From Actinomycetes bacterium (GTDB taxonomy: Bacteria; Actinomycetota; Actinomycetes; Streptomycetales; Streptomycetaceae), in assembly GCA_009783685.1 (NCBI GenBank), contig WRCZ01000001.1, forward strand, positions 1 to 42,953: a DNA stretch of 42,953 nt. The letters are read 5' to 3'. This document shows positions 5,812 to 20,125 of the stretch, piece by piece (position 1 is the stretch's first letter; every line of letters starts with the position of its first letter). A program made the translations under genes and the position numbers. The notes beneath the pieces were generated by a model. It had not been told where the DNA came from and ran no database searches. It saw only the letters and a list, made by a program, of their open reading frames with translations.

Positions 5812-5847
5812 CTGACGGACCTCCTCGGGGTTCGGCGCGGTACCGCG

Positions 5848-7719
5848 TCACCAGGTGGTGACGGCGGTCAGGTACGCCGGGTAGATGGCGATGGCCAGGG
5901 CGAGGGGGAGCAGGGGGACGGCGGACATGAACAGGGGGCGGCTGGCGGTGGCGAACGCGGACCTCAGCGGTGTGCCGGCCGCGCGGGAGGCCTCCCGTAC
6001 GTGCAGCACGGCCACCGACACGCTGACCACCGAGTACGCCAGGCCGCCGAGGATGCACAGGAACACGTAGCCCACGGACGGCCCGGTCAGCTCGCCGATG
6101 ATGGCGGCGGCGGACAGCCCCGTCGCGATGACGACGAACGGCAGCACCAGGCGCTTCGACAGCAGTTCGAGTCCGCTGCGGTCCTTGGGTGTCACCTTGA
6201 AGTAGATCGGCCGGCGGAAGGTCTCCTGGATGACGGCCCCCAGCACCCCCCAGGCCACGAAGGGCCAGCGGGCCATGGCGAACAGCCACAACTCCCAGCT
6301 CCACACAGGCGCGGTAGAGGGCCGCAGCAGCTTTCTGTGCCGCAGCAACAGCAGCAGGATCACCAGCCAGATCGACATGCCCCAGAAGTGGCCCAGGAAG
6401 GCGAGGTAGTTGACGCTCACCCACACCTGCCCGGTGATCGCGGCGGCGGACGGGAGGGCGATCGCGGCGAGCGCGCCGGCAGCGAGCAGCGGGTAGTACA
6501 TGAGCACGATCGTGAAGCGCAGCCGCAACCGGAAGGTCAGCCGGTGCATGTGGCGCGGGATCATGCCGAACATCATCGCGACCAGGCTCCGGGACCACTG
6601 GTACTCCTGGGTGACCATGTCGTCGAAGGTCATCGGACCCAGCCCGTGCGCCTCCGCGTCGATGGCGAACGCCCCCTGCCAGCCCGCGGAGTTGAACAGG
6701 AAGGTGGTGGTGAAGTCCTCGGCGAGGTCGGGCCCCAGGCCCCCGATGTCGCGCAGCGCGCGGGTGCGCACGCCGTAGTGCGAGCCGATGCACACCGGGG
6801 CGAGCCGGTCGGCGTGGCCGAGCTGGAAGGGGCCGTGGAAGGGCGCCTCGCGGTGCATCCGGCCGCGGGCCGACCACGAGGTGGCGGCGTTGGCGTCGCA
6901 GATGCTCGGCGCGGCGACGTAGCCGATGGCCGGGTCGGAGAACGGGCGGACGATCTCCCGCAGGTACCGGGCGTGCGGCTGGTGGTCACAGTCCAGCTGG
7001 ACCACGACGTCGTAGTCCCGGTACCCCCAGTGGTCGTAGAAGTAGGCGAGGTTGCCCTCCTTGCACTTGGTGCGCCGCGGCCACGTCGTGCGGTTGTAGG
7101 CCGCGACGCCCTTGCGGCTGGACACCCGCACCCCGTTGCGGGCGCACCAGGAGCGGATGTCCGCGCGCGGATCCTCGTCGCAGAGCCACACGTCGTAGGA
7201 GTAGGGGAAGTCCTGCGTGAGCATCGCCTCCAGCGTCCTGCGGGCCATGCCCCACGGCTCCGAGGGCGCGCGCGTCACCGCGATCGCCAGCCGGAGCCGG
7301 GGGATGGGCAGTGAGGACGAGACGCGGGGGAGCTTGGAGACGGCTATCAGGAAGTAACTCGCCTGGCAGGTCAGGTAGAACAGCAGCGCGCTGGTCAGCA
7401 CCAGTCCCATCCAGCTGACCCGGTGCGCGGGGTTCAGCCACCACTGCCAGAAGTACGCGAAGAAGGCGCCCCAGCCCACCGCCAGCACGGAGATCCAGAC
7501 CTTGTCACGGTGCGAGAGCGTCGGGACGAAGGTTCCGGGGGCGGCCTTGAGGTTGCGCGGCGGCCGGCCGAAGAGCGGGCCGTGCCGGGTGATCCTGGCG
7601 ACGTTGCCGTCGGAGATCAGGGCCATCCACTCCTCCAGGCCCATGTCCTCCGGTTCGCCGACCAGGGTGTCCGTGCTGCCGTCGTCCGGTGGTTCTGGGG
7701 GCGGGCTCCGGTGCGACAT
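5848..7719 (-). CDS. Processive family-2 glycosyltransferase (cellulose/hyaluronan-synthase-like)
   Basis: A 623-aa integral membrane protein. Two membrane helices lie near residues 73-130, the catalytic domain near 140-390, and about six further helices follow to the C terminus (first around 410-480, last ending at residue 623). Catalytic signatures of processive GT2 synthases are present: an acidic CDEDPRAD near 180-187, a DxD pair at D243/D245 (QLDCDHQ), an acid pair E334-D335 (LAEDFTTT), and the Q(Q/R)xRW position as QEYQW at 371-375, where the usual arginine is glutamine. It would polymerise a UDP-sugar at the inner membrane face and thread the chain out. There is no PilZ domain. It heads the operon with galE, ugd and uxs. 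The polymer is unknown: a hyaluronan-like, xylose- or galactose-containing chain is possible. Confidence 0.88.
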   Translation of the reverse strand: MSHRSPPPEPPDDGSTDTLVGEPEDMGLEEWMALISDGNVARITRHGPLFGRPPRNLKAAPGTFVPTLSHRDKVWISVLAVGWGAFFAYFWQWWLNPAHRVSWMGLVLTSALLFYLTCQASYFLIAVSKLPRVSSSLPIPRLRLAIAVTRAPSEPWGMARRTLEAMLTQDFPYSYDVWLCDEDPRADIRSWCARNGVRVSSRKGVAAYNRTTWPRRTKCKEGNLAYFYDHWGYRDYDVVVQLDCDHQPHARYLREIVRPFSDPAIGYVAAPSICDANAATSWSARGRMHREAPFHGPFQLGHADRLAPVCIGSHYGVRTRALRDIGGLGPDLAEDFTTTFLFNSAGWQGAFAIDAEAHGLGPMTFDDMVTQEYQWSRSLVAMMFGMIPRHMHRLTFRLRLRFTIVLMYYPLLAAGALAAIALPSAAAITGQVWVSVNYLAFLGHFWGMSIWLVILLLLLRHRKLLRPSTAPVWSWELWLFAMARWPFVAWGVLGAVIQETFRRPIYFKVTPKDRSGLELLSKRLVLPFVVIATGLSAAAIIGELTGPSVGYVFLCILGGLAYSVVSVSVAVLHVREASRAAGTPLRSAFATASRPLFMSAVPLLPLALAIAIYPAYLTAVTTW

Positions 7720-7794
7720 GACGACGCTCCTGGTCGGGGTGCCAGGACGTGTACGCAGTCGGTGTGCGCCCTATCCTGACGCCTGAAATTTACG

Positions 7795-7808
7795 ATGTAT
7801 ACGTACAT
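7795..7808. promoter_or_regulatory. Palindromic candidate operator in the divergent TetR/glycosyltransferase region
   Basis: ATGTA-TACG-TACAT is an inverted repeat with perfect 5-bp arms, set in an unusually AT-rich patch of a very GC-rich region. TetR-family regulators commonly bind such palindromes next to their own gene. It overlaps the candidate minus-strand -10 box, and its centre could also be the -10 (TATACG at 7798-7803, with CTGACG 16 nt upstream) for the regulator gene. It could therefore control both directions. Binding is inferred, not shown. Confidence 0.55.
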
Positions 7809-7835
7809 TTTGCGGCGGTTTGTCCGTAGAGTCAA
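7807..7835 (-). promoter_or_regulatory. Candidate promoter of the glycosyltransferase operon
   Basis: On the minus strand a TTGACT box (complement 7830-7835) is followed after exactly 17 nt by CAAAAT (complement 7807-7812). This resembles a housekeeping sigma promoter with a good -35 and a fair -10 box. It faces the glycosyltransferase gene, leaving a leader of roughly 80 nt. The -10 box overlaps the right arm of the palindrome at 7795-7808, so a protein bound there would block it. This is read by eye only. Confidence 0.5.
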
Positions 7836-7882
7836 AGGGCGGGACCGCGAGCCGAGCGGTCCCCCTCCCCGAAGGGGCGGCG

Positions 7883-8701
7883 ATGGCGCGACGCAAGCGC
7901 GACGAGCCGGCCGGCGCGGGCCGCGACGAGCGGGCCCCGAACCGGTCGGCGGACCACGCCCAGGGCCGGCGCACCGGCCGCCGCGCCGCCGACCACGGCC
8001 GCTACGGCCGGCTGAGCCGGGAGCGCGTGCTGTCCACCGCCCTGGAACTGGTCGACCGGGAAGGGCTGTCCGCGCTGAGCATGCGCCGCCTCGGGTCCGA
8101 GCTGGGCGTGGAGGCGATGGCCCTGTACCGGTACGCCGCGGGCAAGGACGCGCTGCTGGACGGCCTGGTGGAGGCGCTCTACCTCGAACTGCGCGAACGG
8201 CTCGACGAGGGTGCCGAGGAAGGCGCGCGGCCGCCGGCGAAGGGCGGCGCCGAGGAGCCCGGATGGCGCAGCGAGCTGCACCGGATCGCGCGGGCGACCT
8301 ACCAGGTGGCCATGGCGCACCCCGAGGTGGTGCCGCTGCTGGCCACCCGCATGCTGGCGGTGCCGCTGGCCCGCCGCGCGCCGGCCGTGCTGAGCGCGCA
8401 GGAGGACATCCTGCGGCTGCTGGCGGCGGCCGGCCTGGACGAGGACACGGCAGCCGCCGCGTACCGGGCGGTCAGCGCCTGGCTGCTCGGCTACGTCTTC
8501 GCCGACCTGCAGGCCATGGTGGACAACCCCGACGAACCCGAGGCGGCCTTCCGGCTGGGCCTGTACCGGATGCCCGCCCACGACTTCCCCGAGCTGCGCG
8601 CGATCACCCCGGCGCTGGCCGAGCGCGGCGGCCCGCAGGGCCTGACCGAGGGCCTGGACGCCGTCCTCGACCCGTGGGTGCCGGGCCCGCCCCAGGACTG
8701 A
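7883..8701 (+). CDS. TetR/AcrR-family transcriptional regulator
   Basis: A 272-aa one-component regulator from ATG 7883, which has a purine-rich AAGGGG about 5-8 nt upstream; an in-frame TTG at 7820 would add 21 residues but lies beside the operator. After a basic, low-complexity N-terminal tail of about 45 residues comes the TetR helix-turn-helix (LSRERVLSTALELVDREG, then LSMRRLGSELGVEAMALYRY). The C-terminal two-thirds is an alpha-helical ligand and dimerisation domain of the Streptomyces TetR type. It is transcribed away from the glycosyltransferase operon, with a palindrome between them, so it is probably an autoregulator that represses the exopolysaccharide genes. The ligand cannot be told from sequence. 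Confidence 0.88.
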   Translation: MARRKRDEPAGAGRDERAPNRSADHAQGRRTGRRAADHGRYGRLSRERVLSTALELVDREGLSALSMRRLGSELGVEAMALYRYAAGKDALLDGLVEALYLELRERLDEGAEEGARPPAKGGAEEPGWRSELHRIARATYQVAMAHPEVVPLLATRMLAVPLARRAPAVLSAQEDILRLLAAAGLDEDTAAAAYRAVSAWLLGYVFADLQAMVDNPDEPEAAFRLGLYRMPAHDFPELRAITPALAERGGPQGLTEGLDAVLDPWVPGPPQD

Positions 8702-8751
8702 ACGCGGGGTTCAACGGACGCTCCCGGGGCGGGTCTTCGGCGCCGACCGGT

Positions 8752-10426
8752 TCAGCGGACCTCCAGCTTCCAGATCTGCGGCGCGAGCTTGTTGCACGTC
8801 CACTGCTGCACGTTGGCGCCGGGCGCGCCCGACCCGCCGGCCACGTCCAGGCACAGGCCGCTGCCGGTGTTGCGGAACGTCCAGTAGCCGTCGCCCTGGT
8901 TCAGGGCCTGCCAGCGCTGCGCCGGCGAGCCGTTGCAGCCCTCCTGGTCGACGTTGGCGCCGGGCGCGGTGCCCGAGCCCGCCACCGCCACGCACAGGCC
9001 GGAGTTCTGCCCGGTCAGGGTGAAGTCGCCGGCGGCCGTCCTGGTGAAGCGGAAGTTCTGCGGGCCGAGCCCGTTGCACGTCCACTGCTGGATGTTGCCG
9101 CCCACCACGCGGGAATCGGCGGACACGTCCAGGCAGTTGCCGCTGATGACGTTGATCAGCCGGTAGGTGCTGCCGGAGGCCAGGCCCGCCCCCGAGGAGT
9201 CCTGGGTGCCCTGCGACGAGCCGGTGGCGTAGAACGGCCGGCACTGGGTGCCGACGTAGTCGGTCGCGATCTCCAGCAGCTTCGTGCCGTCGGTGCTCGG
9301 CAGCAGCGACGAGCTGTAGTTGGGGCAGTAGCTGGCGTCGGGGGAGGGTACGGCGACCGGCGCGTCGACGGGGAACCAGTTGCCGCCGCCGTTCTCGGTG
9401 TTGACCAGGACGGTGCGCCCGCTCGTCGTCGCCAGCGCGCCGTTCGCCTCGCGGAACTGCTGCCCGACGAGCACCAGCCGGCCCGCCGCGGTGCCGTTCG
9501 CCAGCCAGGCGACGACGGGCGTGTGGGTGAAGTACTGGCCGGTCTCGGTGGTGATCATCGGGCCGATGTCGGTCGGCGGGCCCCAGTCGGCGCCGTCGGA
9601 GGACGTGCGGTAGTGCACGGCGCAGTCGTACTGGTTGCCGGTGCCGCACACCTCGTAGGTCATGTAGAAGCTGCCGTCGGCCCGTTGGACGACCGTGGCC
9701 ATGCCGGGGCGCAGTGCCTGGGTGGTCGGGGCGACGGTGGGGAAGGCGGGGCCCCAGGTGCGGCCGTCGGAGGAGAACCGCTCCTGCAGCGACTGGCTGT
9801 GCGCCGCGGGGTCGGTCTCGTCGGAGTAGTGGCAGACCAGGTCGCCCTCGCTGTCCACCGACAGTTCCGGCTCCCACAGCCCGCCGGTGTTGGACGCGGT
9901 GGCGCAGGGCGGCAGTTGCGACCAGGAGGTGCCGTGGTCCTGGCTCTGCCAGACGTCGAGGGACATCCGCCGGTCGGCCGGGCTCTGGCCGACCGAGGCG
10001 GCCCACAGCAGCGTGCCGGCCGGCATGGCGCCGATCTGCCGGGGCAGCTCGAAGAGGGTCGAGCAGCACAGCCCGTTGGCCGTCGCGGGGTCGTGGATGC
10101 CGCCGACCTCCTGGAACGTCGCGCCGTCGTCGGTGCTCCGGTAGATGACGCCGACGCCGCCGTTGGCGTCGAAGTCCACGACGCTGGCCACCAGTTGGCC
10201 GTTGGCCGCGCCGGAGTGGGCCAGCCGCACGACGCGCGGGTACAGGCCCGTGCCGTTGCGCAGGGCGGTGCCGGTGGCGTCCGGGCTCACCGTGGCGGAC
10301 GAGGCCGCGGCCGGTGGCGGTGTCCGGCCGCTGGCCGGCCCCGCCGCGGGCGAGACCACCGATCGACATCAGGACGAGGGCTGCCAGCGCGGCGAGCAGC
10401 CGGTGGAGGGACGGGGGGGTACGCAT
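8752..10426 (-). pseudogene. Secreted Asp-box (sialidase-like) protein with ricin-type lectin domain, apparently frameshifted
   Basis: The long frame (535 aa if started at GTG 10359) lacks a signal peptide. The adjacent frame upstream, from ATG 10426, encodes a classic one (MRTPPSLHRLLAALAALVL). Removing one base near 10357-10362 joins them into SIVVSPAAG and gives a 557-aa secreted protein. The first two-thirds has sialidase Asp-box motifs (STDDGATF, SSDGRTWGP, SSDGADWGP), pointing to a six-bladed propeller of the BNR/exo-sialidase superfamily. The last 130 residues form a ricin B-type beta-trefoil with CLDV...QQW...CNG and QRW/QIW repeats that binds carbohydrate. Likely role: extracellular glycan binding or hydrolysis. 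The catalytic arginine triad of true sialidases was not identified, so enzyme activity is uncertain. Without the repair the protein could be made from GTG 10359 but would stay in the cytoplasm. Confidence 0.75.
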
Positions 10427-10755
10427 ACGGAAGCCTTCCGCGTGGGGGAACGGCGAAGCGGTCTGCGCAGTGGGCGGGGCGCGGTTGCATCGTTGCAAAG
10501 GGCGCTGCGTCAGGCATGACAGCACACCGCGGTCGGCCTGTCCATATCCCTGGTGCGAAGCGTGCGCCCGGTGGGGCGGGCCGGCGCCTTCCTCCGGCCC
10601 CGGGCCCTTCCGCCGCCGGGTCGTCCCCGCGGCGCAGGTGACCTGGGCGATCGGGTGACTTGACCGCGAGGCTCCCCGGCCCCCGCCGCGGCGGGCGCCA
10701 TGCTCGGTGGCTGTTCGAGCACAGCGACCCGACGGCGAGGGCCGGGAGGAGCCAG
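10427..10755. other. Divergent intergenic region between the lectin-domain protein gene and hypX
   Basis: This 329-bp stretch contains no convincing gene; open frames across it are GC-skew shadows. It should hold promoters for both flanking genes. The only clear structure is the TTGCA inverted repeat at 10485-10498. A convincing -35/-10 pair for hypX was not found. Confidence 0.6.
10485..10498. promoter_or_regulatory. TTGCA inverted repeat, candidate operator
   Basis: TTGCA-TCGT-TGCAA has perfect 5-bp arms and lies about 60-70 bp upstream of the secreted lectin-domain gene's start. The TTGCAT core is rare in this GC-rich DNA and also occurs beside the GntR regulators further right. It could be a binding site for a sugar-responsive regulator (GntR or LacI type). 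This is inference from position and symmetry. Confidence 0.4.
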
Positions 10756-12465
10756 GTGAAGATCCTTCTAGTGGCGACGGCGTTCAACAGCCTGACCCAG
10801 CGCGTGTTCACCGCGCTGCGCGACCGCGGGCACAGCGTCGGCGTCGAGCTCGCCCTCGGCGACGGCCAGTTGCGCGAGGCGGTACGCCGCGACCCGCCGG
10901 ACCTCGTCATCGCGCCGATGCTCAAGTCCGCGATCCCGCAGGACATCTGGTCCACCGTCACCTGCCTGATCGTGCACCCCGGTCCGCTCGGCGACCGCGG
11001 GCCCTCCTCCCTCGACTGGGCGGTCCACGAGGGAGCCCGGCACTGGGGCGTCACCGTGCTCCAGGCCGAGGCCGAGATGGACGCCGGCCCGGTCTGGGCG
11101 TCCGTGCCCTGCCCGCTGGCCGCCCGCGGCAAGAGCGACCTGTACCGCAACGAGATCGCGGACGCCGCGCTGGAGGCGGTGCTGACGGCCGTCGCCCGGT
11201 TCGCCTCCGGCGACCACCGGCCCCGCTCCCAGGACGGCCCCGAGCTGCGGGCCGCCGTCCGCACCCGGCCGCCGATGCGGCAGGCCGACCGGCGGATCCG
11301 CTGGGACAGCGACCCCACCGACCGCGTCCTGCGGACGCTGCGCGCCGCCGACTCCCAACCCGGCGTCCTGGACGAGCTGCTGGGCGGCGAGTGGTTCCTT
11401 CAGGGCGGCCACCGGGCGCACGGCACGGGCGGCGCCCCCGGCGAGGTGCTGGCCACCCGCGCGGGCGCGATCTGCCGGGCCACCGTCGACGGCGCCGTGT
11501 GGATCCCGCAGCTGCGCCCCCGCCGGACCCCGGGCGGCCCGCGGACCTTCTCGCTGCCCGCGGCCACCGCGCTCGGCGACCGGCTGGCCGGGGTGCCGGA
11601 CGTCCCCGCGCCGCTGCTCCAGGCGCACGGCCGCCGCGAGTGGAGCGACATCCGCTACCACGAGGTCGGCGCGACGGGCATCCTGTCGTTCTCCTTCCCC
11701 GGCGGGGCGATGGGCACCGACCACTGCCGCCGCCTGCTGGCGGCCTACCGTGCGGCGTGCGCCCGCCCCACCTCGGTGCTGGTGCTCGGCGGCGAGCGGG
11801 ACTTCTTCTCCAACGGCATCCATCTGAACGTCATCGAGGCCGCCGAGGACCCCGGCGAGGAGTCGTGGGCGAACATCAACGCCATCGACGATCTGGTGGA
11901 GGCGGTGCTCACCACCACCGACAAGATGGTGGTCGCCGCGCTGGGCGGCAACGCCGCGGCCGGCGGCGTGATGCTCGCGCTGGCCGCCGACGAGGTGTGG
12001 TGCCGGGCCGGCGCCGTGCTCAACCCGCACTACCGGCTGATGGGCCTGTACGGCTCGGAGTTCTGGACGTACTCGCTGCCGCGCCGGGTCGGCGCCTCGG
12101 TCGCCGCCGCGCTCACCGAGCAGTCACTCCCGGTGAGCGCCGAGCGCGCGGAGCGGCTCGGACTGGTGGACCGGGTGCTGCCCACCCCCGCGGAGGGCTT
12201 CGCCCTGCAGACGGTGGAGCTGGCGACCCGGTGGGCGTCCACCGCGGGCGTGCAGGCGCGGATCGCCGAGAAGAAGGCCGACCGGGAGAAGCGCGAGCAG
12301 GCCAAGCCCCTCGCGGCCTACCGCGACGAGGAGTTGGCGCGGATGCACGCCATCTTCCTCGACCCGGACCACCCCTACCACGCGCTGCGCCGGGCGTTCG
12401 TGCACAAGGAGGTGCCGGCCGCGACCCCGGACCACCTCAGGGCGCTCGCCGGCGCGCGCGGCTGA
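10756..12465 (+). CDS. hypX: HypX/HoxX, CO-forming hydrogenase maturation protein
   Basis: A 569-aa two-domain protein. The N-terminal half resembles N10-formyl-tetrahydrofolate transferases, with the HPGPLGDRGPSSLDWA active-site stretch and the downstream LQAEAEMDAGPVW segment; the C-terminal half is a crotonase (enoyl-CoA hydratase) fold with GGERDFFSNGIHL and ALGGNAAAGGVMLA, which form the oxyanion hole. HypX of aerobic H2 oxidisers takes a formyl group from formyl-THF through formyl-CoA and releases CO, which becomes the CO ligand of the NiFe(CN)2CO site when oxygen is present. The GTG start at 10756 is preferred over an upstream ATG because GGGAGGAG lies just before it and KILLVATAF begins the fold. 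It sits 192 bp ahead of the hydrogenase structural genes on the same strand, fitting an oxygen-tolerant enzyme. Confidence 0.92.
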   Translation: MKILLVATAFNSLTQRVFTALRDRGHSVGVELALGDGQLREAVRRDPPDLVIAPMLKSAIPQDIWSTVTCLIVHPGPLGDRGPSSLDWAVHEGARHWGVTVLQAEAEMDAGPVWASVPCPLAARGKSDLYRNEIADAALEAVLTAVARFASGDHRPRSQDGPELRAAVRTRPPMRQADRRIRWDSDPTDRVLRTLRAADSQPGVLDELLGGEWFLQGGHRAHGTGGAPGEVLATRAGAICRATVDGAVWIPQLRPRRTPGGPRTFSLPAATALGDRLAGVPDVPAPLLQAHGRREWSDIRYHEVGATGILSFSFPGGAMGTDHCRRLLAAYRAACARPTSVLVLGGERDFFSNGIHLNVIEAAEDPGEESWANINAIDDLVEAVLTTTDKMVVAALGGNAAAGGVMLALAADEVWCRAGAVLNPHYRLMGLYGSEFWTYSLPRRVGASVAAALTEQSLPVSAERAERLGLVDRVLPTPAEGFALQTVELATRWASTAGVQARIAEKKADREKREQAKPLAAYRDEELARMHAIFLDPDHPYHALRRAFVHKEVPAATPDHLRALAGARG

Positions 12466-12525: not shown

Positions 12526-12657
12526 GACTGCCCGAGTGGCGGTGTGCCCCTCACCCCGATGGTCGCCTTCGACCGCATCCGGCGGCGCGGCGCACGGTAC
12601 GCAGGGAGGAGACGCCGTTTTCTGGCGTATGTCGACCACAGCACCCAGGAGGCATCG

Positions 12658-13749
12658 ATGGCTGGTGCGAACTCGGCCACGCAGTCCCGCGCCGCCGGCG
12701 GCCCGGGTGCCGCGGCCGACGACCAGGACCCGATCCACATCCTCTGGATCAACGCAGGTCTCAGCTGCGACGGCGACTCGGTGTCGCTGACCGCGGCGAC
12801 CCTGCCGAGCATCGAGGAGATCGCCCTGCAGGGCCTGCCCGGCCTGCCCAAGATCGCGGTGCACTGGCCGCTGATCGACTTCGAGTGCGGCCCCACGCAG
12901 GGCGCCGACGCGTTCATCGAGTGGTTCTTCAAGGCCGAGCGCGGCGAGATCGACCCCTTCGTGCTGGTGGTGGAGGGCTCGATCCCCAACGAGGCGATCA
13001 AGGCCGAGGGCTACTGGTGCGGTTTCGGCGACAACCCCGAGACCGGCCAGCCGATCACCACCAGCGAGTGGATCGACCGGCTCGCCCCGAAGGCCCTGGC
13101 CGTCGTCGCCATCGGCACCTGCGCCACCTACGGCGGCATCCACGCCATGGAGGGCAACCCCACCGGCGCGATGGGCGTGCCCGACTACCTCGGCTGGGAC
13201 TGGAAGTCCTCGGCGGGCATCCCCATCGTGTGCGTGCCCGGCTGCCCGATCCAGCCCGACAACTTCGCCGAGACCCTGACCTACCTGCTGTACCAGGCGG
13301 CGGGCTCGGCGCCGATGATCCCGCTCGACGACAAGCTCCGGCCGACCTGGCTGTTCAACGCCACCGTGCACGAGGGCTGCGACCGGGCCGGCTACTACGA
13401 GCAGGGCGACTTCGCCACCACCTACGACTCGCCCAAGTGCCTGGTGAAGCTGGGCTGCTGGGGCCCGGTGGTGAAGTGCAACGTGCCCAAGCGCGGCTGG
13501 ATGGACGGCATCGGCGGCTGCCCCAACGTCGGCGGCATCTGCATCGCGTGCACCATGCCCGGCTTCCCCGACAAGTTCATGCCGTTCATGGACGAGCCGC
13601 CCGGCGCGAAGGTCTCCAGCACCGCGAGCGGCCTGTACGGAACGGTCATCCGCAGGCTGCGCGGCATCACCGCGAAGACGGTCGACGAGGAGCCCAAGTG
13701 GCGCCACACCGGCCGTGAACTGACCACCGGTTACAGCAAGCCCTGGTGA
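12658..13749 (+). CDS. hhyS: [NiFe]-hydrogenase small subunit, high-affinity actinobacterial type (group 1h/5)
   Basis: A 363-aa iron-sulfur electron-transfer subunit. The ATG at 12658 follows a good CAGGAGG site, and no Tat signal peptide precedes the protein, which fits the cytoplasm-facing location of this class. The N-terminal flavodoxin-like domain carries proximal-cluster ligands C37 and, at the place of the usual second cysteine (CxxC), D40 (SCDGD), plus cysteines in GTCATYGG and VPGCPIQPDN. The C-terminal part has the His/Cys distal-cluster set (HEGCDRAG, then cysteines in SPKCLVKLGCWGP) and the medial-cluster cysteines (GGCPNVGGICIACTMPGFP). The 3Cys-1Asp proximal cluster is a known trait of the Ralstonia eutropha actinobacterial hydrogenase. 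It takes electrons from the NiFe site and passes them toward the quinone pool. The hydrogenase would oxidise atmospheric-level H2. Confidence 0.96.
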   Translation: MAGANSATQSRAAGGPGAAADDQDPIHILWINAGLSCDGDSVSLTAATLPSIEEIALQGLPGLPKIAVHWPLIDFECGPTQGADAFIEWFFKAERGEIDPFVLVVEGSIPNEAIKAEGYWCGFGDNPETGQPITTSEWIDRLAPKALAVVAIGTCATYGGIHAMEGNPTGAMGVPDYLGWDWKSSAGIPIVCVPGCPIQPDNFAETLTYLLYQAAGSAPMIPLDDKLRPTWLFNATVHEGCDRAGYYEQGDFATTYDSPKCLVKLGCWGPVVKCNVPKRGWMDGIGGCPNVGGICIACTMPGFPDKFMPFMDEPPGAKVSSTASGLYGTVIRRLRGITAKTVDEEPKWRHTGRELTTGYSKPW

Positions 13750-13768: not shown

Positions 13769-15574
13769 ATGACGAAGGGCACGGCACTGACGATGGCACC
13801 CACCCCCACGGCCGCGGCGGACGGCAGCGGCCTGATGGAGATGTCCTGGGACCCGATCACCCGGATCGTGGGCAGCCTCGGCATCCACACGAAGATCGAC
13901 TTCAAGCAGAAGCGGGTCGCCGAGTGCTACAGCACCTCGTCGGTCTTCCGCGGCTACAGCGTCTTCATGCGCGGCAAGGACCCGCGCGACGCGCACTTCA
14001 TCACCAGCCGCATCTGCGGGATCTGCGGGGACAACCACGCCACCTGCTCGGTGTACGCGCAGAACATGGCGTACGGGGTGAAGCCGCCGCACCTGGGCGA
14101 GTGGCTGATCAACCTCGGCGAGTCCGCGGAGTACATGTTCGACCACAACATCTTCCAGGAGAACCTGGTCGGGGTCGACTACTGCGAGAAGATGGTCCGC
14201 GAGACCAACCCCGGCGTGCTGGAGCAGGCCGAGCGCACCGAGGCCCCGCACGCCGCCGAGCACGGCTACCGCACCATCGCCGACATCATGCGGTCCCTCA
14301 ACCCGCTGGAGGGCGAGTTCTACCGCGAGGCGCTCCAGGTGAGCCGCTACACGCGGGAGATGTTCTGCCTGATGGAAGGGCGCCATGTGCACCCGTCCAC
14401 GCTGTACGCCGGCGGCGTCGGCACGGTCGCGTCGGTGCAGCTGCTCACCGACTACCTGACGCGGCTCATGCGGTACGTGGAGTTCATGAAGCGCGTGGTG
14501 CCGCTGCACGACGACCTGTTCGACTTCTTCTACCAGGCGCTGCCCGGCTACGAGGAGGTCGGCCGCCGGCGGGTGCTGCTGGGCTGCTGGGGCGCGCTCA
14601 ACGACCCCGAGCACTGCGACTTCACCTACCGCAACATGACCGACTGGGGACGGAAGATGTTCGTCACCCCGGGCATCATCGTGGACGGGAAGCTGGTCAC
14701 CAACGACCTCACGCAGATCAACCTCGGCATCCGCATCCTGCTCGGCAGCTCGTACTACCAGGACTGGGAGGGGCAGGAGCAGTTCGTCACCCGCGACCCG
14801 CTCGGCAACCCGGTCGACCCCCGCCACCCCTGGAACCAGCACACCATCCCCGCGCCGCAGAAGCGGGACTTCGACGACAAGTACAGCTGGGTGATGTCGC
14901 CGCGCTGGTTCGACGGCAAGGACCACCTCGCGCTGGACACCGGCGGCGGCCCCATCGCCCGGCTGTGGTCCACCGCGCTGTCCGGCCTGGTCGACATCGG
15001 CTACGTCAAGGCCACCGGCCACAGCGTGGTGATCAACCTGCCGAAGTCGCTGACCAAGCCGGAGACCACCTTCGAGTGGAAGATCCCGCAGTGGAGCAAC
15101 GCGCTGGAGCGCAACCGCGCCCGCACGTACTTCCAGGCGTACTCGGCCGCCTGCGCCCTGTACTTCACCGAGCAGGCGCTCGCCGAGGTGCGCGCCGGCC
15201 GCACCCAGACCTGGGAGAAGTTCGAGGTGCCGGACGAGAGCATCGGCTGCGGCTTCACCGAGGCGGTGCGCGGCGTGCTCTCCCACCACATGGTCATCCG
15301 CGACGGCAAGATCGCCAACTACCACCCGTACCCGCCCACTCCGTGGAACGCCAGCGTCCGCGACAGCTACGGCACGCCAGGGCCCTACGAGGACGCGGTG
15401 CAGAACACCCCGATCTTCGAGGAGAACTCCCCGGAGAACTTCAAGGGCATCGACATCATGCGCGCCGTGCGCAGCTTCGACCCGTGCCTGCCGTGCGGGG
15501 TGCACATGTACGTCGGCGGCGGCAAGACGGTGGAGAAGATGCACGTGCCGACCGGCCTGAGCGGCCTGGCCTGA
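13769..15574 (+). CDS. hhyL: [NiFe]-hydrogenase large subunit, high-affinity actinobacterial type (group 1h/5)
   Basis: A 601-aa catalytic subunit. The four nickel-binding cysteines are in the L1 motif RICGICGDNH (R81, C83, C86, H90) and the L2 motif DPCLPCGVH (C573, C576, H579). The protein continues 22 residues past H579, a tail that a maturation endopeptidase would remove after Ni insertion; such a protease gene is in the operon. It starts 19 nt after hhyS; ATG 13769 and ATG 13793 are both possible, and neither has a strong ribosome site. The motif context (GDNHATCS, and the VHMYVGGG continuation) fits group 1h enzymes, which oxidise H2 at sub-atmospheric levels in air during carbon starvation and sporulation. 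The gene ends TGATG, overlapping the start of the next one. Confidence 0.97.
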   Translation: MTKGTALTMAPTPTAAADGSGLMEMSWDPITRIVGSLGIHTKIDFKQKRVAECYSTSSVFRGYSVFMRGKDPRDAHFITSRICGICGDNHATCSVYAQNMAYGVKPPHLGEWLINLGESAEYMFDHNIFQENLVGVDYCEKMVRETNPGVLEQAERTEAPHAAEHGYRTIADIMRSLNPLEGEFYREALQVSRYTREMFCLMEGRHVHPSTLYAGGVGTVASVQLLTDYLTRLMRYVEFMKRVVPLHDDLFDFFYQALPGYEEVGRRRVLLGCWGALNDPEHCDFTYRNMTDWGRKMFVTPGIIVDGKLVTNDLTQINLGIRILLGSSYYQDWEGQEQFVTRDPLGNPVDPRHPWNQHTIPAPQKRDFDDKYSWVMSPRWFDGKDHLALDTGGGPIARLWSTALSGLVDIGYVKATGHSVVINLPKSLTKPETTFEWKIPQWSNALERNRARTYFQAYSAACALYFTEQALAEVRAGRTQTWEKFEVPDESIGCGFTEAVRGVLSHHMVIRDGKIANYHPYPPTPWNASVRDSYGTPGPYEDAVQNTPIFEENSPENFKGIDIMRAVRSFDPCLPCGVHMYVGGGKTVEKMHVPTGLSGLA

Positions 15575-16128
15575 TGGCGGCACAGGACGCACGCCCGGCC
15601 CGGCCCGCGGAGGCCACCGCGCGCCGGGTCGAGGAGATCCTCGAACGCCTCGCCGCACACGGCGACCCCGCGGTGGCCCGCACCGCGGAGGACCTCGTCA
15701 GTGCCCTGATGGAGTTCTACGGCAGCGGGCTGGCCCGGGTGGTCGCGCTGCTGTCCGGCCGCAGCGGCACGCCGCTGGAGGCGCTGCTGGACGACGAACT
15801 GGCCGCCGGGCTGCTGGTGCTGCACGACCTGCACCCCGACGACCTGGCCCGGCGCGTGCAGCGTGCGCTGCGCGCGGCCGACGCCGCGTCGGCCGAAGTG
15901 ACCGCGCTGGACGCCGAGTCGGGGCTGCTGCGGCTGCGCGAGGAGGGCGCCGGCGGCTGCGGCTGCGGCGCCGGCGCGGCCCGCGGGCGGATCGAGGACG
16001 CCCTCGCCTGCTTCGCACCGGAGGTCGTCTCCGTCGAGTTCGAGGAGCCCGAGACGGGCGCGCGCGAACCGGTCCTGCTGCAGATCGGCACCCGCCCGCC
16101 CGGGGCGCGGCCGGCGGACGCCCGGTGA
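15574..16128 (+). CDS. NifU-like iron-sulfur protein of the hydrogenase operon
   Basis: A 184-aa protein whose ATG shares a base with the hhyL stop (TGATG). The N-terminal part is helical and acidic (VEEILERLAAHGD; LMEFYGSGLARVVALL). The C-terminal half resembles the NifU C-terminal domain, with a GGCGCG cluster near residues 127-132 and a further cysteine in ALACFAPEVVSVEF. NifU C-domains hold and pass on Fe-S clusters. A protein of this type is a regular neighbour of group 1h hydrogenases. It may supply or repair clusters of HhyS (including the odd Asp-ligated one) or act as an electron carrier; this is inference. Start choice is firm because of the overlap and the residue pattern. Confidence 0.8.
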   Translation: MAAQDARPARPAEATARRVEEILERLAAHGDPAVARTAEDLVSALMEFYGSGLARVVALLSGRSGTPLEALLDDELAAGLLVLHDLHPDDLARRVQRALRAADAASAEVTALDAESGLLRLREEGAGGCGCGAGAARGRIEDALACFAPEVVSVEFEEPETGAREPVLLQIGTRPPGARPADAR

Positions 16129-16778
16129 GGGCGGCCGGCGCCGCGCCCGGACTGCGCAGGTTCCTCACCCCCCGCACCGACGCCGGAACCGAGTGCTGCG
16201 AGCTGTGCTCCCTCGAACTCGGCCCCGGCCACCGCCATCTCGTCGACGTCGAGCAGCGGTCGCTGGCCTGCGCCTGCCAGGCGTGCGCCGTGCTGTTCGA
16301 CCGGCCGGGCGCCGGCGGAGGGCGGTTCCGCACCGTGCCGGACCGCTACCTCACCGACCCGGCGTGGCAGGCCGACCCGGTGCGCTGGCAGGCCCTGCAG
16401 ATCCCCGTCGACATGGCGTTCTTCTTCCGCAACTCCGCGCTCGAACGGCTGGTCGCGCTCTATCCGAGCCCGGCGGGGGCCACCGAGAGCGAGGTCCAGC
16501 AGGACGCCTGGGACGCGGTGTTCGGCGACTCGCCGCTGGCGCACGAACTGCAGCCCGACGTCGAGGCGTTGCTGGTGCGCCGCACCGACCACGGCGACAC
16601 CTGCCACCTGGTGCCGGTCGACGCGGCCTACCAGCTCGTGGGCCGGCTGCGGATGCACTGGCAGGGCTTCGACGGCGGCGCCCTGGTGCACCGCGAAGTC
16701 GACGCGTTCTTCGACGACCTGAACCGCAGGGCGCAGGCGGTCACCGCGACCGCCGGTGAGGGAGGCAACGTTCCGTGA
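16125..16778 (+). CDS. Uncharacterised hydrogenase-operon protein with two CxxC-type motifs (DUF5947-like)
   Basis: A 217-aa protein starting at GTG, overlapping the NifU-like gene by GTGA. Near the N terminus it has two cysteine pairs, CCELC (residues about 24-28) and CACQAC (about 48-53), about 20 residues apart. This spacing suits a zinc ribbon or an iron/Fe-S site. The rest is a soluble alpha/beta protein rich in aromatic residues (VDMAFFFRNSALERLVALYPSP), without membrane helices. It matches what I remember of a family (DUF5947) found beside group 1h hydrogenases. No reaction is known to me. The cysteines and tight coupling suggest a role in assembling or wiring the enzyme. Function is open. 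Confidence 0.75.
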   Translation: MRAAGAAPGLRRFLTPRTDAGTECCELCSLELGPGHRHLVDVEQRSLACACQACAVLFDRPGAGGGRFRTVPDRYLTDPAWQADPVRWQALQIPVDMAFFFRNSALERLVALYPSPAGATESEVQQDAWDAVFGDSPLAHELQPDVEALLVRRTDHGDTCHLVPVDAAYQLVGRLRMHWQGFDGGALVHREVDAFFDDLNRRAQAVTATAGEGGNVP

Positions 16779-17452
16779 CCAGCTTCGACTTCGCGTGCAC
16801 CGGAGTGCGGGCAGACCCCTATGCGGCCGGCCCCACGCTGGTGTTCCGGCTGCGGATCACCGCGCCCGGCGACCAGCCCGTGCACGCCGTGGCGCTGCGC
16901 TGCCAGATCCGCATCGAACCGGCGCTGCGCCGCTACGGCGACCGGGAGGCCGACGGGCTCGGCGACCTGTTCGGCGACCGGTCGCGGTGGGGGAGCACCC
17001 TCAACCCGCTGCAGTTCGCCCAGGTCTCCCTGGTCTGCCCCGGGTTCACCGGCGAGACCGAGGTCGACGTGCCGGTGCCCTGCACCTACGACATGGACAT
17101 CGCCGCCACCAAGTACTTCGAGGCACTGGAGGAGGGCGCGGCACCGCTGCTGATGCTCTTCTCCGGTATCGCCTTCCGCGGCCCCGGCGGCTTCCAGGTG
17201 GAGCCGATCCCCTGGGACAAGGAGGCCCCGGTGCGGCTGCCGGTCGCCGTCTGGCGGGAGATGATGGACCAGCACTTCCCCGGCTGCGGCTGGCTCCGGC
17301 TGCCCCGCGACACCATGGAGGCGCTGCGGGCGTTCCGCTCCCGGCACGCGCTGCCGTCGTGGCAGCACACCATGGAGGCACTGCTCGGCGCCGCCGAGGG
17401 CGCCACCGTGCTCCCCGCCGCCCAGGCCCCGGTGGAGGTGGCGGCGCCGTGA
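16775..17452 (+). CDS. Uncharacterised hydrogenase-operon protein (DUF6084-like)
   Basis: A 225-aa soluble protein, GTG start, overlapping the previous gene by 4 nt. The sequence looks like a beta-rich scaffold: an N-terminal strand pattern (SFDFACTGVRADPYAAGPTL, VFRLRITAPG), a cysteine in ALRCQIRI, then CPGFTGETEVDVPVPCTYDMD and a C-terminal helix region. There is no signal peptide, no membrane helix and no clear catalytic motif. It resembles DUF6084, known to me only as a conserved neighbour of actinobacterial hydrogenases. Because its coding region is linked by overlaps on both sides, it is likely made in fixed ratio with its neighbours and may be a chaperone or a structural subunit. Function unknown. 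Confidence 0.73.
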   Translation: MTSFDFACTGVRADPYAAGPTLVFRLRITAPGDQPVHAVALRCQIRIEPALRRYGDREADGLGDLFGDRSRWGSTLNPLQFAQVSLVCPGFTGETEVDVPVPCTYDMDIAATKYFEALEEGAAPLLMLFSGIAFRGPGGFQVEPIPWDKEAPVRLPVAVWREMMDQHFPGCGWLRLPRDTMEALRAFRSRHALPSWQHTMEALLGAAEGATVLPAAQAPVEVAAP

Positions 17453-18885
17453 ACCCCGTTGCCCCGCCCGCCGCCGCGCCCTGCTTCGACACCGCCCGCG
17501 CGGTCGCCGACGTCGTGCTCTTCGAGGGCTACGTGCTCTACCCCTACCGCGCGTCCGCGGCGAAGAACCGGATGCGCTGGCAGTTCGGCGTGCTGGTGCC
17601 CCCCGCCTGGGGCGACCGCAACGGCGAACACAGCGCCATGCGCACCGAGATCCTGATGGAGCCGCGCGGCGACGCGACCCTGCACGCCGAGGTGCGGTTC
17701 CTGCGCGCCCAGCGGCGGACCGTCGAACGCGCCCTGCCCGACGGCGGGTTCGAGCCGTCCGGGTCGCTGGAGCTGCCCGACCGGGTACTCGTCCCCTGGG
17801 ACGAGGGCGTGGTGGAGACCGCCGAACTCACCTGCGCCGTCGCCGATCTGCAGGCCGCGGTGGACGGCGGTCTGGCGCTGCCGTTCCGCCGCCCCGCCGG
17901 CCAGGACACCGAGGACGTGCGGGACTCCGGCGGCACGCTGATCGGCCGGCTGGTGCGCCGCCGCGAGCAGGTCGACGGGGTCCTGCGGCTGTCCGCCACC
18001 GAACTGCCCGGGCCCTACCGGGCGTTGCGGCTGACCGCGGTGGTGGAGAACACCGGTGCCTGGCAGCCGGCCGACGGCGGCCCCGCCGACCGGGAGGCGG
18101 CGCTGCCGCACGCCCTGGTCTCCGCGCACCTGATGCTCGGGCTGAGCGCGGGCGCCTTCCTGTCCATGACCGATCCACCGGAATGGGCGCGGGCCGCGGC
18201 CGTGGAGTGCCGCAACGAGCAGACCTGGCCCGTGCTGGCCGGCGCCGCGGCCCGCGACGACGTGGCGCTCTCGCTGCCGATCGTCCTGGAGGACCACCCG
18301 GGCATCGCCCCCGAGAGCCCCGGCGCCCTCTACGACGCCACCGAGATCGACGAGATCCTCGCGCTGCGCACGGCCGCCCTCACCGACCAGGAGAAGCGGG
18401 AGGCGCGCGGCACCGACGAGCGTGCCGGCGCGGTGATCGACCTGGCCGACTCGATGCCGCCCGAGGTGCTGGAGCGCCTGCACGGCGCGGTCCGCTCGCT
18501 GCGCGAGGTCACCGGCCCGCCGGTCCTCACCACACCGGACCCGGAAGCCGACCTGGACGAGCTGCTCCGGCCGGACACCCCGTGGTGGGACCCGGCCGCC
18601 GACCGCAGCGTCGACCCGGAGCGCGACCGCGTGCCCGTCGACGGCGTCCTGGTCGGCGCCGGCAGCCGCGTCCGGCTGCGCCCGGGCAAGCGCCGCACCG
18701 ACGCGCAGGACATCTTCCTGCACGGCCGCACCGCACTCGTCGAGGCGGTCCTGCACGACGTCGACGGCGGGGTGCACGTCGCGGTCACCGTCGACGGCGA
18801 TCCGGGCGCGGAACTGCGCCGCGCCCAGGGCCGGTTCCTGTACTTCCAGCCCGACGAACTGACCCCGGTGGAGGACGGCGCGTGA
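17449..18885 (+). CDS. Large uncharacterised hydrogenase-operon protein
   Basis: A 478-aa protein starting at GTG 17449 (GTGA overlap with the DUF6084-like gene) and ending in a GTGA overlap with the protease gene. The N-terminal 250 residues begin with VVLFEGYVLYPYRASAAKNRMRWQFG and look beta-rich. The middle is acidic and helical (DATEIDEILALRTAALTDQEKREARG). The last 90 residues (about GSRVRLRPGKRRTDAQDIFLHG onward to RFLYFQPDEL) look like a compact beta-barrel domain that I recall from other hydrogenase-linked proteins. It has few cysteines, no signal peptide and no membrane helix. Size and context suggest a dedicated assembly factor or partner of the hydrogenase. No function can be assigned. 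Confidence 0.75.
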   Translation: MNPVAPPAAAPCFDTARAVADVVLFEGYVLYPYRASAAKNRMRWQFGVLVPPAWGDRNGEHSAMRTEILMEPRGDATLHAEVRFLRAQRRTVERALPDGGFEPSGSLELPDRVLVPWDEGVVETAELTCAVADLQAAVDGGLALPFRRPAGQDTEDVRDSGGTLIGRLVRRREQVDGVLRLSATELPGPYRALRLTAVVENTGAWQPADGGPADREAALPHALVSAHLMLGLSAGAFLSMTDPPEWARAAAVECRNEQTWPVLAGAAARDDVALSLPIVLEDHPGIAPESPGALYDATEIDEILALRTAALTDQEKREARGTDERAGAVIDLADSMPPEVLERLHGAVRSLREVTGPPVLTTPDPEADLDELLRPDTPWWDPAADRSVDPERDRVPVDGVLVGAGSRVRLRPGKRRTDAQDIFLHGRTALVEAVLHDVDGGVHVAVTVDGDPGAELRRAQGRFLYFQPDELTPVEDGA

Positions 18886-19502
18886 ACGGCGGCAGCGGGA
18901 GCGAAGCCGGCCCGAGCGACGACGGCGTCCCCGGCCCGGTCGGGAACGACCGTGCGCGGGACGGCGGTTCGGGATCTCCGCGGCGGGTCCTCGTCGCGGG
19001 ACTGGGCAACATCTTCGCCGGCGACGACGGATTCGGCGTGGAGGCCGTGCAGCGGCTCGCCCGCCGGCCCCTGCCGCCCGGCGTGGAGACCGCCGACATC
19101 GGAGTGCGCGGCGTCCACCTGGCGTACCAACTGCTCGACGGCTACGACACCGTGGTGCTGCTCGACGCCACCGCGCGCGGCGGCGTCCCCGGCACCGTCT
19201 ACCGCATCGACGGTGCCGAGGCCGACCGCCCCGAGGGCGACGTGCTCATCGACGGCCACCGGATGACGCCCGACGCGGTCCTCGCGCTGCTGGACACCCT
19301 CAGCGCGGGCACCGGCGGCACCCGGCCCGGGCGCGTCACGGTGATCGGCTGCGAACCCGCCGTGCTGGCGGAGGGCATGGGCCTGAGCCCGGCCGTCGCC
19401 GGCGCGGTGGAGCCGGCCGTGGAGGCCGTCCTCGGCCTGCTCCGCGAGGAGCCGGGCACATCCGACCGGGCCCCTGCGGGGGCGGACGAGGCGAGGAGGT
19501 GA
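18882..19502 (+). CDS. Hydrogenase maturation endopeptidase (HyaD/HybD/HoxM family)
   Basis: A 206-aa protein, GTG start, 4-nt overlap with the preceding gene. After a variable N-terminal tail of about 34 residues the conserved core begins: VLVAGLGNIFAGDDGFG (residues 36-52). The expected nickel-sensing ligands are E54, D95 (VVLLDA) and H126 (IDGHRMTP), the three residues seen in HybD-type proteases. It checks Ni in the large subunit and cuts the C-terminal tail after the L2 histidine; HhyL here has a 22-residue tail for it to remove. The N-terminal tail is longer than in most family members (about 160 aa), so a later start cannot be ruled out, although the overlap supports this one. The stop lies within the ribosome site of the next small gene. 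Confidence 0.9.
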   Translation: MNGGSGSEAGPSDDGVPGPVGNDRARDGGSGSPRRVLVAGLGNIFAGDDGFGVEAVQRLARRPLPPGVETADIGVRGVHLAYQLLDGYDTVVLLDATARGGVPGTVYRIDGAEADRPEGDVLIDGHRMTPDAVLALLDTLSAGTGGTRPGRVTVIGCEPAVLAEGMGLSPAVAGAVEPAVEAVLGLLREEPGTSDRAPAGADEARR

Positions 19503-19507
19503 TCGTA

Positions 19508-19606
19508 GTGAAGTACGTGCTCGGTGCCGTCCTCGGCGGACTCGCCGCCGTCGTGGCGACGTCCCTGCCCGACGTCAGGCGCTACCTGAAGATGCGCGCG
19601 ATGTGA
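19508..19606 (+). CDS. 32-residue single-span membrane micropeptide (DUF6893-like)
   Basis: A very short gene: GTG 19508, TGA 19604-19606. The start has an ideal GGAGG at 19495-19499, which overlaps the end of the protease gene; a GTG at 19499 would lie on top of that site. The product is one hydrophobic helix of about 17 residues (YVLGAVLGGLAAVVATSL) followed by a basic end (PDVRRYLKMRAM), predicted to sit in the inner membrane with its positive C terminus in the cytoplasm. I recall a conserved small family (DUF6893) at this place in actinobacterial hydrogenase operons. The hydrogenase subunits have no membrane helix of their own, so this peptide could anchor the enzyme or an assembly partner near the quinone pool. 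That role is inference. Confidence 0.72.
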   Translation: MKYVLGAVLGGLAAVVATSLPDVRRYLKMRAM

Positions 19607-19747: not shown

Positions 19748-20125
19748 ATGCACGAGATGTCCATCGCACTGGCCGTCGTCGGCCAGGTCGAGGACGCCGC
19801 GCGCTCCCACGGCCACACCGCCGTCGAGTCGGTGGCGCTGCGGGTCGGGGAGCTGGCCGGAGTGGTGCCCGACGCCCTGCGGTTCTGTTTCGAACTCGCC
19901 TGTGAGAACACCCTGCTGGCGGGGGCCACGCTCCTCACCCAGCAGGTGCCGGGACGCGCTTCCTGCGCCCCGTGCGGGTCGGACTGGGACACCGGACTGC
20001 CCCCGCAGCTGTGCTGCCCGTGCTGCGGGGGTGCCGCAGGCGGCCTGCTGTCCGGCAGGGAACTGGAGATCGCCGAGGTGCGCTGGGCCGACGCCGGTGC
20101 CGCCACGGCCTGTCAGGAGGTGTGA
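19748..20125 (+). CDS. hypA: HypA, hydrogenase nickel-insertion chaperone
   Basis: A protein of 125 aa when started at ATG 19748. This start is preferred over GTG 19742 because HypA must begin Met-His-Glu: H2 and the N-terminal amine bind nickel. The zinc site is the two cysteine pairs in CAPCGSDWDTGLPPQ and LCCPCCGG. The core (SIALAVVGQVEDAA; RVGELAGVVPDALRFCFELA) matches the family throughout. It receives Ni with HypB and delivers it to the large subunit. It begins the hyp half of the locus after a 141-nt gap holding a hairpin, and its stop overlaps a possible upstream start of hypB. Confidence 0.95.
   Translation: MHEMSIALAVVGQVEDAARSHGHTAVESVALRVGELAGVVPDALRFCFELACENTLLAGATLLTQQVPGRASCAPCGSDWDTGLPPQLCCPCCGGAAGGLLSGRELEIAEVRWADAGAATACQEV

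Follow-up and report, generated by a model that had tools for sequence, protein, structure and literature searches.

How is a group 1h [NiFe]-hydrogenase put together and held at the membrane? These enzymes are reported to have no anchor of their own yet to be membrane-associated, and their H2 affinity drops once they are purified away (PMC7174314; papers are cited here by PMC number, from excerpts of their text). The question is raised by an operon in a stretch of 42,953 nucleotides (nt) from a member of the Streptomycetaceae (Actinomycetes bacterium, GenBank assembly GCA_009783685.1, contig WRCZ01000001.1, positions 1 to 42,953; "the window" denotes this whole stretch). Six plus-strand genes lie here between the large-subunit gene hhyL, whose stop codon occupies 15572-15574, and hypA. 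Judging from sequence comparison, we give an even chance to the proposal that four of the encoded proteins, namely a short HhyE-like protein, a DUF5947 protein, a DUF6084 protein and a protein of 478 amino acids (aa), may act as an assembly set for the group-1h-like hydrogenase and that the DUF6893 micropeptide may be its membrane tether. The features of the operon are as follows.

12544-13749, plus strand: hhyS, small subunit (PF14720, PF01058), with the motif CDGD; best PDB match HofK of 5aa5 (549 bits); the real start probably lies 3' of 12544.
13769-15574, plus strand: hhyL, group-1h-like large subunit (PF00374); best PDB match HofG of 5aa5 (1107 bits).
15574-16128, plus strand: short HhyE-like, putatively NifU-derived protein of 184 aa, assigned by position, alignment and motif counts; has GCGC in place of CxxC and lacks the Rieske-like domain at the C terminus.
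16125-16778, plus strand: DUF5947 protein of 217 aa (PF19372, 246 bits, curated cut-off 25), predicted to bind metal; motif CxxC-HxH-CxCxxC.
16775-17452, plus strand: DUF6084 protein of 225 aa (PF19562, 317 bits, curated cut-off 25), predicted immunoglobulin (Ig)-like beta sandwich plus C-terminal helices.
17449-18885, plus strand: 478-aa protein without a match in Pfam and NCBIfam (E<=1) or PHROGs; predicted to have an N-terminal part rich in beta structure and an SH3-like domain at the C terminus.
18882-19502, plus strand: hydrogenase maturation endopeptidase of the HyaD/HycI type (PF01750, TIGR00072).
19508-19606, plus strand: DUF6893 membrane micropeptide of 32 aa, a hydrophobic helix with a basic tail, LPDVRRYLKMRAM (PF21833, 53 bits, curated cut-off 24.6; also supported by profile and pattern scans of related loci).
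19748-20125, plus strand: hypA (PF01155), which opens the following hyp cluster.

The gene order and coordinates from hhyL to the peptide agree with those put forward in an earlier reading of the letters alone (the original prediction), and the Pfam and NCBIfam matches are in line with them. HhyL carries both Cys motifs, RICGIC and DPCLPC, and the closest solved relatives of the two subunits are HofG and HofK of Cupriavidus necator. By homology, these genes make up the structural operon for a group-1h-like (actinobacterial-type) [NiFe]-hydrogenase, a group label that rests on similarity to HofG.

The 478-aa family gave 524 confirmed candidates, of which the best 80, all from Streptomycetaceae, serve as related loci; being picked by that protein, they test the neighborhood and not independence. 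The genes from hhyS to hypA are complete and in order in 75 of the 80. In four exceptions (L032, L049, L058 and L059), a contig end interrupts the run; the fifth, L048, lacks only hypA. The junctions from hhyL down to the protease overlap by 1, 4, 4, 4 and 4 nt in the window, as originally noted. Counting these loci and the window wherever both genes were readable, the five junctions allow a 4-nt overlap in 68/78, 77/78, 80/81, 77/81 and 78/81 cases. The overlaps exceed chance because they recur across this set and on C. necator plasmid pHG1 (1, 4, 8, 4 and 4 nt). With mechanically assigned starts, overlaps of 4 and 8 nt occur at hypC/hypD and hypD/hypE of the window too. The fixed-ratio synthesis read from these junctions is thus founded on real, conserved overlaps but remains a weak proposal, as 5aa5, the single group-1h-like PDB entry found, is matched by HhyL and HhyS only.

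On pHG1, hofK and hofG are followed by genes for a NifU-family protein, DUF5947, DUF6084, a 476-aa protein and a protease, with the peptide after the protease, and by hyp genes. It differs in that its NifU-like protein has no Cys at the motif and its peptide matches 26 profile positions. Plasmids of Kitasatospora, Mycobacterium intracellulare and Methylocystis parvus share the pHG1 order. In the Hhy operon of Mycobacterium smegmatis, HhyE (MSMEG_2718) is encoded directly after hhyL, and on the related M. intracellulare plasmid a DUF5947 gene follows HhyE; by position, MSMEG_2717 would be a DUF5947 gene as well. Judged by homology, the HhyE-like, DUF5947, DUF6084 and 478-aa proteins are therefore conserved neighbors of hhySL across Actinomycetota and two proteobacteria.

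Phylogenetic profiling against hhyL had been set beforehand as the test of whether the proteins occur widely without group 1h hydrogenases, and they do not. Among 198 Actinomycetota genomes, 30 have an HhyL match at E<=1e-100, comprising 24 at >=65% identity (here termed group-1h-like) and 6 at 41-46%. DUF5947 is encoded in 23 genomes, 22 of them among the 24 group-1h-like ones (naive Fisher p of 7e-26, kinship ignored); in the 23rd, G189, a 6,878-bp contig ends in DUF5947. Thus, 22 of the 23 DUF5947 genomes have hhyL. The 478-aa protein occurs in the same 23 genomes, again including 22 of the 24. A further match in G018 (18.8 bits over 50 residues) was taken as chance and left off the counts. 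DUF6084 is present in 22 genomes, 21 of them group-1h-like, and absent in G128 and G171. The two group-1h-like genomes without DUF5947, G184 and G042, are metagenome-like fragmented assemblies. In G184, hhyL breaks off early and is fused to a hypE-like stretch. In G042, the HhyE frame continues straight into DUF6084, without DUF5947; a natural fusion was rejected here, as the shared frame holds the own Met of DUF6084 and a deletion or misassembly is likelier. Across 72,556 plasmid records, 12 (three strains being present twice) match HhyL, and the same 12 encode DUF5947 and the 478-aa protein, with DUF6084 in 10 of the 12. Because this profile follows group-1h-like hhyL so closely, it supports the view that the accessory proteins belong to the hydrogenase and appear to be inherited almost only with it.

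Such breadth also bears on the question of novelty. That the window holds nothing new, being an ordinary group 1h operon with known conserved hypothetical genes, is a reading we rate as distinctly possible, if short of even odds. One gene order runs through C. necator, Mycobacterium, Methylocystis and Streptomycetaceae, and conserved hypotheticals are already in print: hhaABC in the Thermomicrobium roseum operon (PMC6776052), four function-unknown genes beside hhyL in Alphaproteobacteria (PMC12319191), and MSMEG_2717/PHG067 and HhyE as uncharacterized or partly characterized operon genes (PMC6883350). The label of an undescribed system is not supported for the operon as a whole. However, a literature search found nothing on DUF5947 or DUF6893 and a single paper on DUF6084, concerning an antibiotic cluster. 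No account of the peptide was found either, in a search that left most subscription journals outside, such that an earlier mention is possible. Nor is the peptide listed in the gene tables of C. necator and Methylocystis, which describe themselves as incomplete. Three points are apparently undescribed: the association of CxxD with the module as opposed to CxxC in module-less relatives, the CxC or single Cys of short HhyE set against the nearly invariant DUF5947 metal motif, and the conserved peptide at the protease end of the operon.

The first point concerns the small subunit. Where the proximal-cluster motif is presumed to lie, HhyS of the window and of C. necator has CDGD (CxxD), and remoter relatives have CDGC. 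We take the Asp of CDGD to be a ligand of the proximal cluster, as reported from work on the 5aa5 structure. CxxD is present in 76/76 Streptomycetaceae loci with HhyS and in the further module loci examined. Among 11 loci with large subunits at 41-46% identity, HhyS was readable in nine, all with CxxC (9/9), and no DUF5947, DUF6084 or 478-aa protein was found in the stretch taken around those nine. Genome G140 carries both kinds of large subunit. That the module tracks the Asp-ligated motif is suggestive only, because the contrast sets one clade against another.

The second point concerns the gene immediately 3' of hhyL. Its 184-aa product aligns with HhyE over the N-terminal part (33% and 35% identity to the C. 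necator and Mycobacterium homologues) and can be read, by position and alignment, as a NifU-derived short form of HhyE. The NifU likeness originally noted holds in this respect, but the protein gives no PF01106 (NifU) match of its own in Pfam, whereas its C. necator and Mycobacterium homologues do. Mycobacterial HhyE is long, with CxxC and C-terminal CxxC pairs. The window protein, in contrast, ends after the NifU-like part, without the C-terminal domain and its two CxxC, and has GCGC where the CxxC cluster ligands were sought. In 70 short HhyE sequences (69 of the 80 loci with a usable start, plus the window), CxC occurs in 64, a single Cys in 6 and CxxC in none; the C. necator protein has no Cys at this motif and the Methylocystis protein has one. 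Long HhyE proteins of other Actinomycetota retain CxxC, and some give weak matches to Rieske-like profiles. CxxC is also kept in the long HhyE of the same-family locus L120 (genome G182, 4904-8496; HhyL 90%), where the 478-aa gene has an internal stop and neither protease nor peptide was found in the stretch examined. By tblastn, the NifU-like protein matched four plasmid records, every one partially. Truncated HhyE forms are mentioned in PMC6883350. A split of HhyE into the NifU-like and DUF5947 proteins was considered and rejected, as M. intracellulare has a long HhyE plus a separate DUF5947.

It was also claimed that no protein of the set except the protease has a nameable role. This does not stand for the short HhyE, since deletion of the hhyE counterpart in M. 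smegmatis abolished Hhy activity, even in staining with the artificial acceptor NBT (nitroblue tetrazolium), and HhyE co-localized with HhySL on native gels (PMC6883350).

The metal motif of DUF5947 behaves differently from that of HhyE. CxxC-HxH-CxCxxC is kept in 76/76 Streptomycetaceae sequences and in 25 of 27 others, the two misses being a cut sequence (L130) and a variant (L128). As the HhyE motif is degenerate while this one is nearly invariant, DUF5947 would be the likeliest universal metal handler, if any one protein of the set has that task everywhere.

The same invariance suits a scheme in which the soluble proteins form an electron-transfer chain, with Fe-S clusters on HhyE and DUF5947 leading from HhyS to the quinone pool and with DUF6084 and the 478-aa protein as scaffolds. 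Long HhyE proteins keep the NifU CxxC and the Rieske-like C-terminal part. In addition, PHG067 has been proposed as an electron acceptor, and group 1h operons are described as lacking a cytochrome b subunit, to which the native-gel co-localization can be added (these three from PMC6883350). We nevertheless consider such a chain rather unlikely, because loss of hhyE also ends artificial-acceptor staining and because the short HhyE proteins have neither CxxC nor a Rieske-like part. The NBT result and the loss of the NifU CxxC in many short HhyE proteins argue for assembly rather than mere electron transfer. So does the case of Huc, a group 2a enzyme: the purified complex consists of HucS, HucL and HucM, and HucE goes unmentioned in the excerpted text (PMC10017518). 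Huc resembles the present system as an oxygen-insensitive, high-affinity hydrogenase with a NifU-containing partner (HucE) and a separate membrane-contact subunit (HucM). It differs in that HucM is a 189-residue coiled-coil scaffold, whereas DUF6893 is a 32-aa single-helix peptide.

For the other two soluble proteins, no cofactor motif was seen and fold matches are generic. The DUF6084 model (Ig-like sandwich and C-terminal helices; mean predicted local distance difference test [pLDDT] 89.8) has its best fold match at Z 8.9, to the LEA protein 1xo8, inside the range that the tool calls common. The 478-aa model, a beta-rich body with an SH3-like C terminus, has a mean pLDDT of 78.4. Its C-terminal part matches the PetP-like SH3 chain 7r0w_V (TMt 0.77, Z 6.7), tied with many other SH3-like chains, and its N-terminal part matches DrmA (Z 9.5 over 197 residues, 4.6 Å) at modest model confidence. 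The best sequence match of the 478-aa protein is from Actinacidiphila rubida (84%), by which the host resembles an Actinacidiphila-like streptomycete. None of the accessory proteins has a credible match among PDB chains. In the S. cattleyicolor arrangement, a further gene lies between the 478-aa gene and hhyS (L008, 8273-8818), and its start presumably resembles hemerythrin.

The third point is the micropeptide. It comprises 32 aa if translated from GTG 19508, which follows GAGGAGG, or 35 aa from GTG 19499, and consists of one hydrophobic helix and the tail PDxxRYLxxRxM. A hidden Markov model (HMM) grown from the window peptide (the locus HMM) found it in 79 of the 80 Streptomycetaceae loci, the remaining one (L059) ending before the peptide position; in 77 loci, its distance to the stop of the protease gene is -10 to +80 nt. 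Including the window, the tail residues D, R and Y are identical in 80/80 peptides, 78/80 end in Met, and the last 12 residues carry a net charge of +3 or +4 in 72/80. Pairwise nucleotide differences in the tail number 8,829, 5,096 and 14,507 at codon positions 1, 2 and 3. With third positions most variable, the tail shows the pattern expected under translation; third positions of the hydrophobic part are not the most variable. A scan of 1.64 Mb from 86 sources for a hydrophobic stretch with an RY...M/I tail returned 84 hits; no source has more than one, and every hit lies on the strand of the operon, with none on the opposite strand.

Beyond these loci, 44 of the 80 Streptomycetaceae locus genomes were scanned with the Pfam model: 43 have a single copy each, and in the 44th the locus HMM finds one. 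PF21833 also matches C. necator pHG1 at 66774-66851, where an ATG follows GGAGG; the unlisted peptide there spans 66753-66854. An explanation of the soluble C. necator enzyme by lack of the peptide was dropped upon this match. In Methylocystis, MGLFEIILGLLILALIAFNFRDIVRYIKITMM is encoded immediately 3' of the protease, below the threshold of the Pfam model. In the S. cattleyicolor type, the peptide is a variant that ends in RIWRM and carries a C-terminal extension. tblastn found no DUF6893 in plasmids even at E 5, which means little, as the HMM does find it there. The 198 genomes gave 23 matches, of which 17 lie at the module and an 18th (G152 C75) on a contig with the protease end and hypF. 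In G150 and G195, the match lies at hydrogenase maturation genes with no hhyL nearby. The G150 locus (L112, G150:C1:2940000-2958000) holds, at 8155-9439, an HhyS fragment with CDGD, the protease, the peptide and hyp genes, and no hhyL or accessory genes. Two genomes belonging to one family have, apart from their hydrogenase genes, a DUF6893 subtype ending in PDFQRYKQLRDM or PDFQRYQQLRDM (L117, 4045-4137; L116, 2155-2250). CydX and KdpF are peptides of about 30 residues with one membrane helix, encoded at the operon end of the complex they stabilize. DUF6893 resembles them, by analogy only, in size, helix and operon position.

Of the two options offered originally, an assembly line for the Asp-ligated cluster or a membrane-docking and electron-transfer complex, both are live; we think that assembly suits the soluble proteins and docking the peptide. 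In such a scheme, the unusual proximal cluster of HhyS would be built or inserted by HhyE, DUF5947, DUF6084 and the 478-aa protein, which would also keep HhyS in place until it joins HhyL. Metal binding would fall to DUF5947, with DUF6084 and the 478-aa protein as scaffolds without cofactor motifs. The protease would trim HhyL ahead of tethering, and DUF6893 would then tether the otherwise soluble enzyme near the quinone pool through its single membrane helix. The tether reading draws on the membrane association of an enzyme class without an anchor (PMC7174314) and on the presence of the peptide in 79/80 loci, and the basic tail suggests a cytoplasmic C terminus. A bolder version, which we advance only tentatively, would make DUF6893 the missing, universal membrane subunit of group 1h, its PDxxRYLxxRxM tail binding HhySL at the quinone pool, and the four soluble proteins an assembly line specific to the Asp cluster, distinct from the machinery of CxxC enzymes.

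Several points weigh against the proposed assembly set and tether. PMC6883350 leans to electron transfer as the role of HhyE. The S. cattleyicolor type does without DUF6084, which thus cannot be indispensable. The CxxD/CxxC split separates two clades and may be one evolutionary event, and the decayed G150 locus keeps CDGD without the module. The peptide is also present in C. necator, whose enzyme is nevertheless described as cytoplasmic and of low affinity (PMC7174314). The peptide was not found at the module loci of G171, G182, G100 and G124, and 8 of the 24 group-1h-like genomes give no PF21833 match. Copies also lie apart from hydrogenase genes (G189 C155 and G189 C92) or away from the module (G092 C26:29044), and a second copy adjoins phosphoribulokinase on the M. 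intracellulare plasmid (L132, 7332-7523; NZ_CP012886.2, 357331-357522). These scattered copies, along with G150 and G195, are what one would expect if the micropeptide were no hydrogenase subunit at all but a general small membrane protein, or a protease or hyp partner encoded here by chance, which we nonetheless find doubtful in view of the 18 sample matches at or beside hydrogenase genes, the single copy per Streptomycetaceae genome and the invariant D, R and Y of the tail. On that M. intracellulare plasmid, a full nuo operon adjoins the hydrogenase, an apparent H2/CO2 island.

The flanks of the window operon can be described briefly. Immediately 5' of hhyS and outside the module proper lies one further plus-strand gene.

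10660-12465, plus strand: hypX-like gene (PF00551, PF02911, PF00378) with formyl transferase and enoyl-CoA hydratase domains; the TTG start is mechanical.

In Streptomyces avermitilis, hypX is reported to be a separate transcript, according to an excerpted source. Further upstream, the minus strand encodes a protein (8752-10359) that combines a BNR-like domain with ricin-type lectin repeats. Neither a sigma-70-like promoter nor a T-tailed terminator was found. A strong hairpin follows the peptide in the window (z -1.87), but a conserved terminator at this site was rejected, as the hairpin clearly exceeds shuffles in just 19 of the 80 loci.

Much of the uptake of atmospheric H2 by soil is attributed to group 1h hydrogenases, and both their membrane attachment and the way they hand on electrons are stated as open in the excerpts of PMC6883350 and PMC7174314. 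A conserved micropeptide, together with a gene set that may track the Asp-ligated cluster, makes both questions addressable gene by gene in tractable strains.

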